This document shows positions 57,194 through 63,824 of a DNA stretch of 64,000 nucleotides, piece by piece. Location of the stretch: assembly GCA_945878405.1 (NCBI GenBank), contig CAMCTJ010000006.1:62001-126000 (forward strand), given 5' to 3'. The first letter of the stretch is position 1; each line of letters begins with the position of its first letter. The notes under the pieces are model-generated. The model had not been told where the DNA came from and did not search any database. It saw nothing but the letters and a program-made list of their open reading frames with translations. Both the position numbers and the translations under genes were made by a program. Source of the DNA: Bdellovibrio sp. ZAP7 (lineage in GTDB: Bacteria > Bdellovibrionota > FAC87 > UBA2466).

Positions 57194-58105
57194 TTACAGC
57201 TGCCCTTTGAGAAACTCAGTTACTTTTGATCCCGCGGCATAACTCGCGTCTTTACTGAAATCATGAGGTAGCGGTGGAGAGGCAGCAATCTTTTTTCCGG
57301 TTCCGGATAAAACCCCTAAAAGGCAGAGCTCATTTGACTCTCCCCTCATGAATCCTGCCCCTCCCGAATCGCCTTGAGTGATCGCCGCTTTTGTATCCTG
57401 AGTACTGCCGCTGAAACTCACCCCTTCGCCGATGATGGTATCGATAAAGTCCCCGTGTGCTGAAATCCCCAGCCCAGGAGCTAGTCCGCCAGACATCAAT
57501 TTTCCCATCCAAGAACTCGCCATGAAAAGTTTGTCTCCTTTCTGTGGCTGTTTGGGGCACAAGGCAACCTTGGTTGCTTGGGAACAAAACTTCTTATCTT
57601 TGATTTTTAACACTGCAACATCAAAAGGCTTCTCCGCTTGATCCTGATTTTCCCCCTTTGCTTTTTCGTGAGCTGCTGCATAGGTGGGGTGCGGAGTCAC
57701 TTCCATGGTCACCTCCCCATACCCCGTTTTTACCCTTGCACTCTTCCCAAAAGAAGGCTCCACACAATGGGCAGCCGTTACAGCAGTACAGTTTTCCTCC
57801 CCATTTTTTTGTTTCTGTTTATCGCTCGGCCGTTTCAATACGGTCGCCGCACATCGATGTGTTTCTCCCGATTTCTCGCCCGGGAAGCCAATGTCAAAAC
57901 TGGGATTCTCACTTTTACCTCCTTCCAGAGATTCATAGGATTTAAAATACCTATCTCCCTTTTTCTCGCGAGGATCCTCAACACCGGTTGCCTCTTCTCT
58001 GGATCCATTTTTTTCTGGAGCGCCATGATCCCCCTCGTCACATACTCCAAAGGGAGCTGAGATCAAAAGACCGATAAAGCAAAACGCGAGAATTTTCATT
58101 TTCAT
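57194..58105 (-). CDS. Secreted trypsin-like serine protease
   Basis: Chymotrypsin-fold protease with a signal peptide (KILAFCFIGLLISAPFGVC). The catalytic triad reads H in CTAVTAAHC, D in PFDVAVLKI and S in QGDSGGAGF. Residues 25-60 form a charged Glu/Gly/Lys-rich pro-segment. AAGGA precedes the start codon. 303 residues. Two bases separate it from the cytochrome b561 gene, which it probably shares a transcript with. Confidence 0.92.
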   Translation of the reverse strand: MKMKILAFCFIGLLISAPFGVCDEGDHGAPEKNGSREEATGVEDPREKKGDRYFKSYESLEGGKSENPSFDIGFPGEKSGETHRCAATVLKRPSDKQKQKNGEENCTAVTAAHCVEPSFGKSARVKTGYGEVTMEVTPHPTYAAAHEKAKGENQDQAEKPFDVAVLKIKDKKFCSQATKVALCPKQPQKGDKLFMASSWMGKLMSGGLAPGLGISAHGDFIDTIIGEGVSFSGSTQDTKAAITQGDSGGAGFMRGESNELCLLGVLSGTGKKIAASPPLPHDFSKDASYAAGSKVTEFLKGQL

Positions 58106-58164: not shown

Positions 58165-58422
58165 ATGCACAAAGCGTTACTCATAGCCCTGGCACTCGGT
58201 TTAGGAATCACCGCCCACGCAAAAAAGAACTGTACAGATGAGCCAAAAGACAAGTGGATGTCTGAATCTGACTTTAAGAAAAAATTAGAAGCCGAAGGAT
58301 ATACCATAAAGAAATTCAAACAACCGGGAACATGCTACGAAATTTACGGAACGAACAAGGAAGGACAAAAAGTAGAAATCTACTTCAATCCGGTCGACGG
58401 AAGCATCGTCAAAGCTCACTAA
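58165..58422 (+). CDS. Exported PepSY-like protein
   Basis: An 85-residue periplasmic protein with a signal peptide (HKALLIALALGLGITAHA) and one PepSY domain (WMSESDFKKKLEAEGYTIKKFKQPGTCYEIYG, VEIYFNPVDGSIVKAH). AAGGAG precedes the ATG. It is divergent from the protease/cytochrome b561 set and probably functions with it, by analogy with other PepSY/cytochrome b pairs. Its stop shares bases with the convergent antiporter (CTAA). Confidence 0.9.
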   Translation: MHKALLIALALGLGITAHAKKNCTDEPKDKWMSESDFKKKLEAEGYTIKKFKQPGTCYEIYGTNKEGQKVEIYFNPVDGSIVKAH

Positions 58423-60107
58423 AGGAGCGCTTCGATATCTGAGGCTGGGATCTCGTAAAACCCTAAAACTTTTCGGGTAATTTGTTTCGCGGTTTCAGCT
58501 TCAGCAATCACTCTCTCAACTCCTTCTAAATTGAGGCATCGCGCTTCATCCATAAAGTATTGCAAACGAACCACCAGTCGAATGTCGGGTCGTATTTTTC
58601 GAACTGAAGCTACAATTTTATTGATCCACACAGCATCGTTAATCGTCACCACCACTGCTCGAGCCGTTTCTATTCCACACTTTTCTAAGATTTCTTGTTT
58701 GCCCCCATCTCCAAAATGCAAAGGCTCATTGGGGTTCTGCTGCAAGGCTGAGGCATTGCTCTCAATTGCTTGATACGGTATTCCCAAAACTCTCAGTGCC
58801 GCCGCAAGGTTTTTTCCGTTGTTTCCAAAGCCGATAATGATGACATGATCTTTTATGCTGCTCTCATGCCGATTCATGGTTTGAATATGAGCGCTGTGTT
58901 TATCACGAAAGGATCTCTCAATCAGTTTTCCCACCAGATCCGTTTTAATCAACTGAGGAGCCAAGAGCGGTGTCGCATGCACAATGAGAGGCGATATAAC
59001 AAGACTCAACACAATCACCGACAAGAGAAACTGGTACTCTGTTGGCTGAATAACCCCTGCTCGATGCGCACTATCCGCTAGGATAAATGAAAACTCTCCC
59101 ACTTGAGAAAGCATTAACCCTGCTATGAGACTAGCTCTTTGCATGACTCCCAAAAGATTTCCTGCTATGGAGTTGAGAACCGTTTTTCCAAACAGAATCG
59201 CAAGCGTTGCCCCGATAATGGAAAACGGATGTGAAAGGAAAAACTGAACATCGAGCAGCATTCCCACTGAGACAAAGAAAATCGCCACCAGAGGATCGCG
59301 CCAAGCGACCATGTCAGCTGTTGCTTGATGTCCATAAGGGCTTTCAGAAATTAAAAGCCCCGCAATAAAGGCCCCCAACGCTAAAGACAATCCTACCTGT
59401 TGTGCAGCCCATGCTGAAAAAATAATGAGTAGAGCTACTGCAATAATAAACAGTTCTCGCCCTCCTGAACGGGCTATCAATCGAAACAGTGCGGGAATGA
59501 AATAGCGAGCAGCAATGACAATAACCCCCAAAATTCCTGCTGCTTTAACTAAAAGCTCTAACCAACTTTTGGTCTCAACCGGAGTCGTGGAGTGCGAAGC
59601 CAAAAATGGGACCAAAAGCATCAGAGGAACCACTAACAAATCTTGAAAAATTAAAATACCAACGGCCAAGTTCCCGTGGGGACTCGCAATTTCACGGCGT
59701 TGATGGAGCGCTTTTAAAACAATGGCAGTCGAACTCAAAGCCATCATGCAGCCCATGAGAAAAGATTCTCGGCTGTCATGTCCCAGGGCCATTAGGATTC
59801 CCATAGACACGCCTGTCACCAGTAAAAACTGAAGTGTTCCCCCACCAATCAGTACACGCTTCATTTGGAGTAGGCTTTTAATGGAAAATTCGACCCCGAT
59901 ACTAAACAGCAAAAAGACCAACCCAAGCTCAGCAATTTGGTGAATCGTTTCCGTATCTGAAATAAGTCGAAACCCGTACGGACCAACAATGACGCCACTG
60001 ATGATGAATCCGACGATGGTGGGGAGTTTTAACAGTCTAAAGAAAATAGCTACGCCCGTAGCGACAGCAAAAATGATGAGAAATTCGCGAAGAAAGCTTT
60101 CAAGCAT
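58419..60107 (-). CDS. Kef-type monovalent cation:proton antiporter
   Basis: CPA2-family potassium/proton exchanger of the inner membrane. About twelve spans cover residues 1-390 (starting LRLLKLPTIVGFIISGVIVGPYG), followed by a TrkA-N/RCK domain (HVIIIGFGNNGKNLAAALRVLGIPYQAIES) with a Rossmann NAD(H)-binding motif. No C-terminal TrkA-C is visible. Length 562 is close to YbaL/KefB. Confidence 0.94.
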   Translation of the reverse strand: MLESFLREFLIIFAVATGVAIFFRLLKLPTIVGFIISGVIVGPYGFRLISDTETIHQIAELGLVFLLFSIGVEFSIKSLLQMKRVLIGGGTLQFLLVTGVSMGILMALGHDSRESFLMGCMMALSSTAIVLKALHQRREIASPHGNLAVGILIFQDLLVVPLMLLVPFLASHSTTPVETKSWLELLVKAAGILGVIVIAARYFIPALFRLIARSGGRELFIIAVALLIIFSAWAAQQVGLSLALGAFIAGLLISESPYGHQATADMVAWRDPLVAIFFVSVGMLLDVQFFLSHPFSIIGATLAILFGKTVLNSIAGNLLGVMQRASLIAGLMLSQVGEFSFILADSAHRAGVIQPTEYQFLLSVIVLSLVISPLIVHATPLLAPQLIKTDLVGKLIERSFRDKHSAHIQTMNRHESSIKDHVIIIGFGNNGKNLAAALRVLGIPYQAIESNASALQQNPNEPLHFGDGGKQEILEKCGIETARAVVVTINDAVWINKIVASVRKIRPDIRLVVRLQYFMDEARCLNLEGVERVIAEAETAKQITRKVLGFYEIPASDIEALL

Positions 60108-60710: not shown

Positions 60711-60770
60711 TACCTGATCCCTTTTAATGTGCTTAGGACGGGAAGTGGGGAGAGGAAAAGGGAAGGATAA
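60711..60770 (+). repeat. Left terminal inverted repeat of the element
   Basis: Reads TACCTGATCCCTTT at its outer end. Against the reverse complement of the right end it has five substitutions and one single-base gap over about 61 positions. The purine-rich inner half includes GGGAAGTGGGGAGAGGAAAA, identical in both. Confidence 0.9.
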
Positions 60771-61719
60771 TGCGGCCCTAGAGCACTTGAGAGGCCAATA
60801 CTTTTTAGTTACTAGCTTTTTTGTGACAAAAGCAAAGGCCCATTGCCCCAATTCTTCTTGCAAAAACCACCTTACTCCGAAACAGCGGTTTTACATCAAA
60901 AGAGGGTATTTCATCACCCAATGGAACCGCGGGCGAGTTCCCCGCTACCAGTGTCTTGATTGTAAAAAAAGTTTTAGTAGCCACACGTTCTACCGCACCT
61001 ACCGACAGAAGAAACCTTATCTAAACGACACGATTTATAGGTTCTACACTTCAGCCACCACTCAAAGACGCCTTGCAAAGATTCTGGGAGTAAACTTAAA
61101 GACAGTGGTTAGAAAGTTTCTCTTTCTTGCCCACAACGCAGAAGCTATGCACCTAGAAAAACTCGGCAAAAAAGAATTCGATGTGGCTCATTGCCAATTT
61201 GACGAGATGCTGACCTTTGAGCATACCCGCTTAAAGCCCATCTCCATTGCACTGGCTGTGCAAAAGCAGGATTCAAAACTCATTTCCATACAAGTGGCGC
61301 AGAGTCACTACCAGGGTATTCTCTCCTCTGTGGCAATCCGAAAATATGGGCCAAGAGAAGACCAAAGCCATGCTGCCAGAAGTAGGGTACTAACAACACT
61401 CCAATCCCAAATCAAAGGCAGTTGCACTCTGGTGACTGACGCAAAGTTAGTCTACCGAACAGAGGTCGCAAGCCATGTTCCAGAAGCAACGCTTGTACAA
61501 ATCAAAAATAGAGGCAGTAGATTACAGAGGCTTCTGGGTGCCAAGAGAAGAAACATCAAAGACCCGATGTTTGAACTTAATCTCGTGGCTGCAAAAATCC
61601 GACATGATTTATCTCGCATGGCGAGAAAAGTGTGGGTGACGACCAAGTGCCAAGACAGGCTTCACAAACACTTGATGTTATTTCTCGCTTCTCAAAATGG
61701 ATATTCGATTGCAGATTAA
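60727..61719 (+). CDS. DDE-type transposase with N-terminal zinc ribbon
   Basis: A 330-residue transposase. Zinc-binding CPNSSCKNH and YQCLDCKKSF pairs form an N-terminal ribbon, then a helix-turn-helix-like AKILGVNLKTVVRKF. QFDEMLTFEHTRLKP and LVTDAKLVY give two candidate catalytic aspartates, and DPMFELNLVAAKIRHDL carries a possible glutamate, so a DDE fold related to the IS1/IS1595 group is likely but not proven. ATG 60727 lies inside the left repeat; an alternative GTG at 60823 lies beyond it. Confidence 0.8.
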   Translation: MCLGREVGRGKGKDNAALEHLRGQYFLVTSFFVTKAKAHCPNSSCKNHLTPKQRFYIKRGYFITQWNRGRVPRYQCLDCKKSFSSHTFYRTYRQKKPYLNDTIYRFYTSATTQRRLAKILGVNLKTVVRKFLFLAHNAEAMHLEKLGKKEFDVAHCQFDEMLTFEHTRLKPISIALAVQKQDSKLISIQVAQSHYQGILSSVAIRKYGPREDQSHAARSRVLTTLQSQIKGSCTLVTDAKLVYRTEVASHVPEATLVQIKNRGSRLQRLLGAKRRNIKDPMFELNLVAAKIRHDLSRMARKVWVTTKCQDRLHKHLMLFLASQNGYSIAD

Positions 61720-61907: not shown

Positions 61908-61949
61908 AAGGATCACCTTTCCTCAGGTTTTTTCCAAGGAGCTCAATCC

Positions 61950-63824
61950 GTGAAGATCTTTCGTTTACAGTTATTTTTCTTTCTTATTACGTCGGTGATT
62001 TTAGTTTGTGCAGGAGCTTGCCAAACGCTCATAGGAAATCGTTCGCTTTCAGGGGGGCGGCCAAATCCACTCCGGACCGATTTTCTCAATCAGGCCGATA
62101 AACTCGTCTCAAAATCTGACAGCGCTTTTTTCTCACCCGATAAGCCCAAGCTGTGTGCAGCTCTGAGAGGGAACGGTGATAAGGTTTTAGCACATATTGC
62201 TTCGATGGCAGGGATTGTTGAGCGGTATGGAGTTATCGATGGAGTTGCAGGCTCGAGCTCTTCAGCCATCTCATTATTTCTCTATGAAAGCGCTCTCATG
62301 AATCCCTCAATTTGGAATTGTGGCGGCGCTCCTTGCGATGAACAAACCGTTCGGGCCCGTTTATCTTTTCAGCTTAAAGCAGGTGAGGTCGTCGTTAAGG
62401 GCTTTTTGAACAGCCCCATGATAAAACAGGCACTAGACACGCAGAACCCCAGCAATTCGGCTGAAGCAAAACAAGGTGAAGACTTCCTGAAATATGGGTT
62501 CCACCCCAAAACACGAGGGCTTTTTAAACGCCTTAAAAAACGCATCATCCATCGATTTGCTTGGCGGATTATGTCCGAAAAGTTTTATCAATTTACCGCA
62601 ATGTCTGGAGCCGATTTTGTAAATCGGGAGCTTCTTGGAGAAGTTGAAGATTTTCTCATTGATCTACCGGCCCAAAAGCGGTGGGAAATGATGAGAGCGC
62701 TGAATGCTCTCGATTTCAATAACAGTGACATATCGATTCTGTTCAGAGAAGGCGTTATTGATTTTCCACGACTGTTTCGAAAAGTAGGAATCGTAGCCGA
62801 CTTCTTTGCAGGACGTGGAAAGGCGTATCCGAAAGCTCAAATGGCCCAGATATTGGGTAGTAAATGTGTCACTGAGGCCTTTGGAAAAAGTTGGTCGGAG
62901 TTTATTGCAAGTTCTGTGGGAAAAAGCTGTGAAAACACAATTGGAACTGTGATGAGAAACTATTTCAACGTCTACCGAAATTCTGCTCCGATTGCGAATA
63001 CCCGTTTGAATGATCCTATTGGTGGCGCTTTGAAATCCATTGTACCCGTTTCCGTGATTGTCCAGGGGGGAGTGGAAAAAGTACAAAAAGCCTATCGAGA
63101 ATATAAACTTCTTTATGAAACTAATCTTCCCGATCCCGCTCCTGGACATTTCGAAGCTGCTTACAAAGCTTGGACCGATCGAACGGCGAGAATTAAATTC
63201 GATTTAGATTTTGAAAATGAAATTCTTTATGGTTATTGGGGGCGGTACTCAGACCTAAAAAATATTGTGAACTCGTGGACGCCAACAGATGAGATTAAAT
63301 CCCAAAAGTTTACTCCCTTAGGAGTCATGGCGTGGCGAGACGTGCTTTTAGCCTCGCCTGTTGAGCCAGGGCTTTCTAAGATCAATCCTCTCAAAGACAC
63401 TCCGGATCATCGAGCTGCCGGAGTATCAGGTTATATGGCTGGAGGTTGGGTAGATTTGCATCCGACTCAAGTTTCTCGATTGATGGGTTGTGAAAAAGTG
63501 ATTTTTGTTACGCGGGAGTGGCCGGAAGATAATGAATTTGCAGAGGGCCTAGTAAAATTCTTTAAAATCCCCGAGGAAAAAAGAAAAACTATTTATGACA
63601 TCAACGATCCTAATAGTTCTTTTAATCAGTCCCTTCGTGAAGCAGATGCTATTTGGTGTACCAATTGGGGCCAGTTTAAGATGTTTGATTTACAACCGAT
63701 GACCACTCAATCTTTTCATTCACCGGTTTTTTCTCGAGCTGGGGATGACCCACTTTTCAGTAGAGCCAACCCCATTCTCCAATCCTATAAACCCGGCTGT
63801 ATGCCGATTGAACGGAAATCGTAG
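61950..63824 (+). CDS. Patatin-like lipoprotein with altered active-site motifs
   Basis: A 624-residue protein (GTG start behind AAGGAG) with a signal peptide and possible lipobox ending (LVCAGAC). The segment ALRGNGDKVLAHIASMAG, GVIDGVAGSSSSAISLFLYES, and later YMAGGWVDLHPTQVSRLMGCEKVIFVT line up by eye with the three patatin phospholipase blocks: oxyanion GGGxxG, nucleophile GxSxG and the DGG/A aspartate. Here they read RGNGDK, GSSSS and AGG, so the nucleophile Ser may remain but the loop Asp and the oxyanion glycines differ. The middle 300 residues are helical. It could be a diverged or inactive phospholipase. Confidence 0.75.
   Translation: MKIFRLQLFFFLITSVILVCAGACQTLIGNRSLSGGRPNPLRTDFLNQADKLVSKSDSAFFSPDKPKLCAALRGNGDKVLAHIASMAGIVERYGVIDGVAGSSSSAISLFLYESALMNPSIWNCGGAPCDEQTVRARLSFQLKAGEVVVKGFLNSPMIKQALDTQNPSNSAEAKQGEDFLKYGFHPKTRGLFKRLKKRIIHRFAWRIMSEKFYQFTAMSGADFVNRELLGEVEDFLIDLPAQKRWEMMRALNALDFNNSDISILFREGVIDFPRLFRKVGIVADFFAGRGKAYPKAQMAQILGSKCVTEAFGKSWSEFIASSVGKSCENTIGTVMRNYFNVYRNSAPIANTRLNDPIGGALKSIVPVSVIVQGGVEKVQKAYREYKLLYETNLPDPAPGHFEAAYKAWTDRTARIKFDLDFENEILYGYWGRYSDLKNIVNSWTPTDEIKSQKFTPLGVMAWRDVLLASPVEPGLSKINPLKDTPDHRAAGVSGYMAGGWVDLHPTQVSRLMGCEKVIFVTREWPEDNEFAEGLVKFFKIPEEKRKTIYDINDPNSSFNQSLREADAIWCTNWGQFKMFDLQPMTTQSFHSPVFSRAGDDPLFSRANPILQSYKPGCMPIERKS

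Follow-up and report, generated by a model that had tools for sequence, protein, structure and literature searches.

The 624-residue protein studied here, encoded in a 64,000-nucleotide stretch of Bdellovibrio sp. ZAP7 DNA (the window), is, as predicted from profile homology and from the ranking of structural hits, a very divergent patatin-fold protein. Sequence comparison places it in a distinct, un-named family common to Bdellovibrionota and Myxococcota; on the present alignments and models this is a new variant family built on the patatin fold and predicted to be exported. Patatin chemistry is defined by the Ser-Asp dyad, whereas this whole family drops the Asp and keeps the Ser together with new invariant residues. 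Devoid of the Asp, the family would represent either a catalytic arrangement of a new kind or a pseudoenzyme of ancient origin. The boldest form of the former has a rough probability of 0.42: a patatin-fold branch, exported, would carry out acyl chemistry through the retained Ser in the absence of a Ser-Asp dyad, with the help of a new base (e.g. E472) and an Asn-containing oxyanion loop, an arrangement that would have been fixed before the Bdellovibrionota and Myxococcota members diverged. The analysis also provides annotation, and a candidate envelope factor, for unnamed proteins of two groups rich in predatory bacteria.

The gene (Table 1) starts with GTG, is present in one copy in its own genome and stands alone, its downstream neighbour being convergent. 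The protein is 65 and 71% identical in amino acid sequence to its relatives in two congeners; differences affect 18 and 13% of second codon positions, as against 68-69% of the four-fold sites that could be compared. Amino acid identity retained at this level despite such divergence at four-fold sites indicates strong purifying selection on the gene. A chance ORF is ruled out by the homologues and by the purifying selection. An earlier reading made from the sequence alone (the sequence-only reading) had considered a diverged, redirected or catalytically dead phospholipase; the altered blocks proved to be fixed across an old conserved family, which together with the purifying selection rules out the decay of one gene.

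Clustering of gene neighbourhoods over 57 family loci revealed no conserved partner, the other clusters being mainly shadow ORFs overlapping the gene, and no family-wide conserved neighbour tying it to lipid metabolism was found among these loci. Synteny is kept in one congener downstream of the patatin-fold gene, not upstream. The convergent ORF of 564 amino acids (63834 to beyond the window end; C6:125834-127525, minus strand) has no Pfam match and is conserved beside the patatin-fold gene in the congener, with 48% identity. Positions 60727-61719 (plus strand) hold a 330-aa ORF with a zinc-ribbon-like start (CPNSSC...YQCLDCKKSF), a transposase-like look and no Pfam match; its first 43 residues recur at 100% identity on another contig (C15:46581-46709), it is absent upstream of the relative in the congener, and it is possibly a mobile element. 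Further ORFs encode a secreted trypsin-like serine protease (57194-58105, minus strand; PF00089, E 6e-7) and a Na/H exchanger of the KefB type with a TrkA_N domain (58419-60107, minus strand).

Table 1 Features of the patatin-fold gene and its product (positions in the window)
Feature	Position	Strand	Basis
Ribosome-binding-site-like AAGGAG, 8 nt 5' of the GTG start	61936..61941	+	Direct reading
Coding sequence of the 624-aa patatin-fold protein, with its stop codon	61950..63824	+	Full-length homologues; purifying selection
Predicted N-terminal export signal, hydrophobic residues 4-23, weak lipobox A-G-A-C24	61950..62021	+	Sequence; aligned relatives
R73-G74-N75-G76, aligned with the patatin oxyanion GGG loop; Asn in place of the middle Gly and Arg in place of the Ser before it; invariant 74/74	62166..62177	+	Family alignment
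G101-S-S103-S104-S105, nucleophile elbow; no variation at S103 (nucleophile position) or S104 (74/74)	62250..62264	+	Family alignment; AlphaFold2 strand 98-101, then helix 104-116
Mostly helical insert between the halves of the patatin core, about residues 125-415; invariant K143, C306, C327	62322..63194 (approximate)	+	No profile match; secondary structure of the model
S469-P-V-E472-P473, counterpart of the patatin 'AS..(I/L)P' element; invariant Glu (76/76) where patatins have a hydrophobic residue, candidate replacement base	63354..63368	+	Family alignment
A497-G-G-W500-V-D502-L-H-P, DGG block in which Ala takes the place of the catalytic Asp; W500 invariant, D502 in 74/76	63438..63464	+	Family alignment

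Neither Pfam nor NCBIfam searches with the window protein matched any family. The profile search against PF01734 that the sequence-only reading had proposed left the protein unmatched at E<=10, and the same profile run over the whole genome found three other loci, not this gene. Pfam gave a patatin match in none of ten sampled relatives; PF01734 touched two of 50, with a best E of 0.02, below the curated cut-off. A scan of 84,980 genomes with the single sequence was likewise negative, as was tblastn over plasmids. An alignment-based scan of 84,980 species detected 56 loci, nearly all titled Bdellovibrionota or Myxococcota, and genome searches placed relatives in 12 of 59 close genomes, in 50 of the 369 Bdellovibrionota genomes searched and in 21 of 284 searched from the phylum of a Myxococcota relative. 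One relative (L011/L058, G012:C79) has an apparent internal partial duplication at about residues 165-245, with X in the translation and possibly an assembly join. A tree of 50 rows separates a Bdellovibrionota clade (20 rows) from a clade of 30 rows that includes the Myxococcota and the window's own family. The tree was made by a quick method and has some long branches, and some bins of the window's family are assigned to other groups by their NCBI titles. The best explanation of the aligned residues is that the family ancestor already lacked the DGG/A aspartate before the split of the Bdellovibrionota and Myxococcota members. Literature searches over open-licence papers returned no account of such a patatin-fold family.

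The fold assignment comes from profile comparison by hhalign with a patatin alignment built from the same phylum. Residues 60-160 matched the N half of patatins and residues 440-624 the C half, independently of each other, with P of 1.3e-4 and 5e-5 in a first run and 4.8e-5 and 1.2e-5 (scores 33 and 40) after cleaning of the columns. In the first run column-shuffled halves scored at most 14.4, as against 31-37 for the true halves. In the later comparison, control profiles of FabD and alpha/beta-hydrolases scored 12-15 (P 0.2-0.4 for the halves). The two matches are collinear with the three motifs: the RGNG loop is paired with the GGG loop, GSSSS with GxSxG, SPVEP with AS..xP and AGGWVDLHP with DGG...P. 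Residues 160-440 gave no match to patatins. The alpha/beta-hydrolase and FabD folds were ruled out, having produced no profile match (P 0.22-0.73).

The AlphaFold2 model of the window protein, built with 50 family sequences, reached a pLDDT of 86.1 and a pTM of 0.87. When it was compared with the PDB by Foldseek, the best 16 of 359 matches were all patatin-type (VipD, CapE, PlpD, ExoU, CapV); the best E was 0.03 and no match passed 0.001. A patatin also ranked first in a viral structure library (E 0.023). A Myxococcota relative, modelled separately (pLDDT 92.4), had patatins at ranks 1-4, 6 and 8-10, none individually significant. The helical insert of about 290 residues is the likely reason for the weak whole-chain structural scores. 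That the protein has an unrelated fold, with motifs resembling those of patatins by chance, is very improbable: the absence of Pfam, NCBIfam and significant sequence matches to solved structures, along with Foldseek E values above 0.001, has to be set against two independent collinear profile matches lying far above shuffles and other serine-hydrolase folds, and against top structural matches dominated by patatins. The combined profile and model evidence makes a patatin fold close to certain. The claim that the family fold was recognisable has thus held, on the two profile-profile matches and the patatin-dominated structural ranking; a better match to another fold was looked for, and no fold ranked above patatins in the PDB.

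Residues were counted over 76 distinct members (74 for the N-terminal motifs), of which 42-43 had come from a genome profile search independent of motif patterns; the same residue states hold in these. The motifs reported earlier, RGNGDK (residues 73-78), GSSSS and AGG, are present, and the profile alignment sets them in the right register opposite the patatin blocks. The accompanying statement that all three catalytic blocks are altered is correct for two of them, the catalytic Asp being absent in 76/76 and the oxyanion loop changed, but not for the nucleophile Ser, which is invariant. The aligned patatins have G opposite N75 (97%), S opposite S103 (94%) and D opposite A497 (94%), I/L/V opposite E472 and L/V/I opposite W500. 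At the position of the catalytic Asp the members carry A (55), V (10), S (5), T (3) or F (3), and D in none; W500 is the same residue in every one of the 76. The fifth residue of GxSxG is A in 38, G in 31 and S in 5 of the 74 members, so that the complete motif occurs in 31. The GSSSS of the window departs from GxSxG at this fifth residue alone and, by alignment, is an uncommon version of GGSS[AG].

By the same alignment the new invariants R73, N75, S104, E472 and W500 occupy the very loops that hold the patatin motifs. The 50-row alignment has 20 invariant columns, and 13 of them fall in the 18 residues that make up the four active-site loops, where 0.6 would be expected (hypergeometric 2e-18), which argues that the site is maintained with family-specific residues and is not decaying. 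Such loop invariance would also fit ligand binding without catalysis, a point against a rebuilt enzyme. A further reading retains an ordinary patatin lipase, with the catalytic Asp situated elsewhere, in the insert or at the C-terminus, and the alignment mis-registered. The heavy elaboration of the domain speaks for it, as do two strongly conserved acids, D502 and the one at position 448 (D in 71/76; the window protein has E). Against it, the alignment of the C half has fixed points in AS..xP, GG, P and the G-A/C and strand that come next, and we regard this reading as improbable. D502 and H82 are conserved in the family, yet both occur in canonical patatins too, and the D502-equivalent site of patatins has no fixed residue (N, F, E or D), so D502 is not the catalytic Asp by homology.

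Hydrophobic N-termini are found in nearly all relatives with a plausible start, and the 49 aligned relatives have mostly signal peptides, most of those in the Myxococcota clade with canonical lipoboxes (LAAC, LVAC, LSAC and similar). A canonical lipobox is absent from the main Bdellovibrionota clade, in which the mature protein would start just before the first core strand. The AGAC of the window, compared with the lipobox [LVI][ASTVI][GAS]C, has Ala at -3 and is a poor lipobox. The earlier label of lipoprotein is therefore weakly supported for the window protein itself, although many Myxococcota relatives have good lipoboxes. The 50-row alignment shows little or no variation at cysteines 69, 306, 327, 514, 570 and 617, which fits disulfides formed outside the cytoplasm. 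From these features we infer that the window protein would be exported and either periplasmic or membrane-anchored.

In the patatin/PNPLA mechanism the Asp of the Ser-Asp dyad helps to deprotonate the Ser (PMC12871566), and in ATGL both Ser47 and Asp166 have been found essential by mutation (PMC3198459). Since the Asp is essential in the patatins studied, its loss predicts inactivity unless another base serves. A pseudoenzyme, that is, an exported lipid or ligand binder on the patatin fold with hydrolysis abolished by the loss of the Asp and with a pocket lined by the Ser, Arg, Asn, Glu and Trp that never vary, would accord with this requirement of known patatins for the Asp (PMC12871566, PMC3198459), with the variation at the Asp position (A, V, S, T, F), which looks released from any function, and with the Asn replacing the middle Gly of the oxyanion loop in all members. 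We give it about one chance in three. Against it, the nucleophile Ser is kept in all 74 distinct members across two phyla, whereas in pseudoenzymes the nucleophile, too, is commonly lost.

An exported serine acyl-hydrolase or transferase with a rebuilt catalytic site and an alternative base, for which E472 is the best candidate, stands at even odds. Its catalytic chemistry, what it acts on and any cellular or predatory role are matters that we infer, and the steps are put forward as a proposal. By alignment S103 remains at the nucleophile elbow; its surroundings would have been rebuilt as a set, with R73 and N75 on the oxyanion loop, S104 next to the nucleophile, E472 within the AS..xP loop and W500 after the GG. 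Outside the cytoplasm the protein would still attack a lipid-like ester or thioester by way of a covalent acyl-serine intermediate, in an oxyanion hole given a new shape by N75. The role of the lost aspartate as base may have been taken by E472 in the first place, because this residue never varies and stands where patatins have a hydrophobic residue, in a loop that they conserve; D502 or H82 would be the next candidates.

Among known systems, FabD-type acyltransferases and alpha/beta hydrolases are also serine-elbow enzymes, with no profile match to the window protein. CapV and CapE, the patatin effectors of CBASS defence, are among the best structural matches of the models of the window family. 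Their patatin domain is canonical and they are cytoplasmic binders of cyclic nucleotides, whereas the window protein is predicted to be exported and no conserved neighbour gene accompanies it. The closest comparison is with the patatin/PNPLA phospholipases (PF01734; patatin-17, PlpD, VipD, ATGL), which share with it the core fold, the order of motifs, the Ser in the elbow, the AS..xP element and the GG after the lost Asp, followed by a helix and a strand. The window protein should not be filed as a PF01734 phospholipase, because two of the three defining motifs (GGGx[KR]G and the Asp of DG[GA]) are missing and it falls below the curated cut-off. In contrast to patatins, the family has RGNG in place of GGGxRG, no member with the DGG/A Asp, a Glu in the AS..xP loop and a Trp after the GG, and it is further set apart by the helical insert, the export signal and the conserved cysteines.
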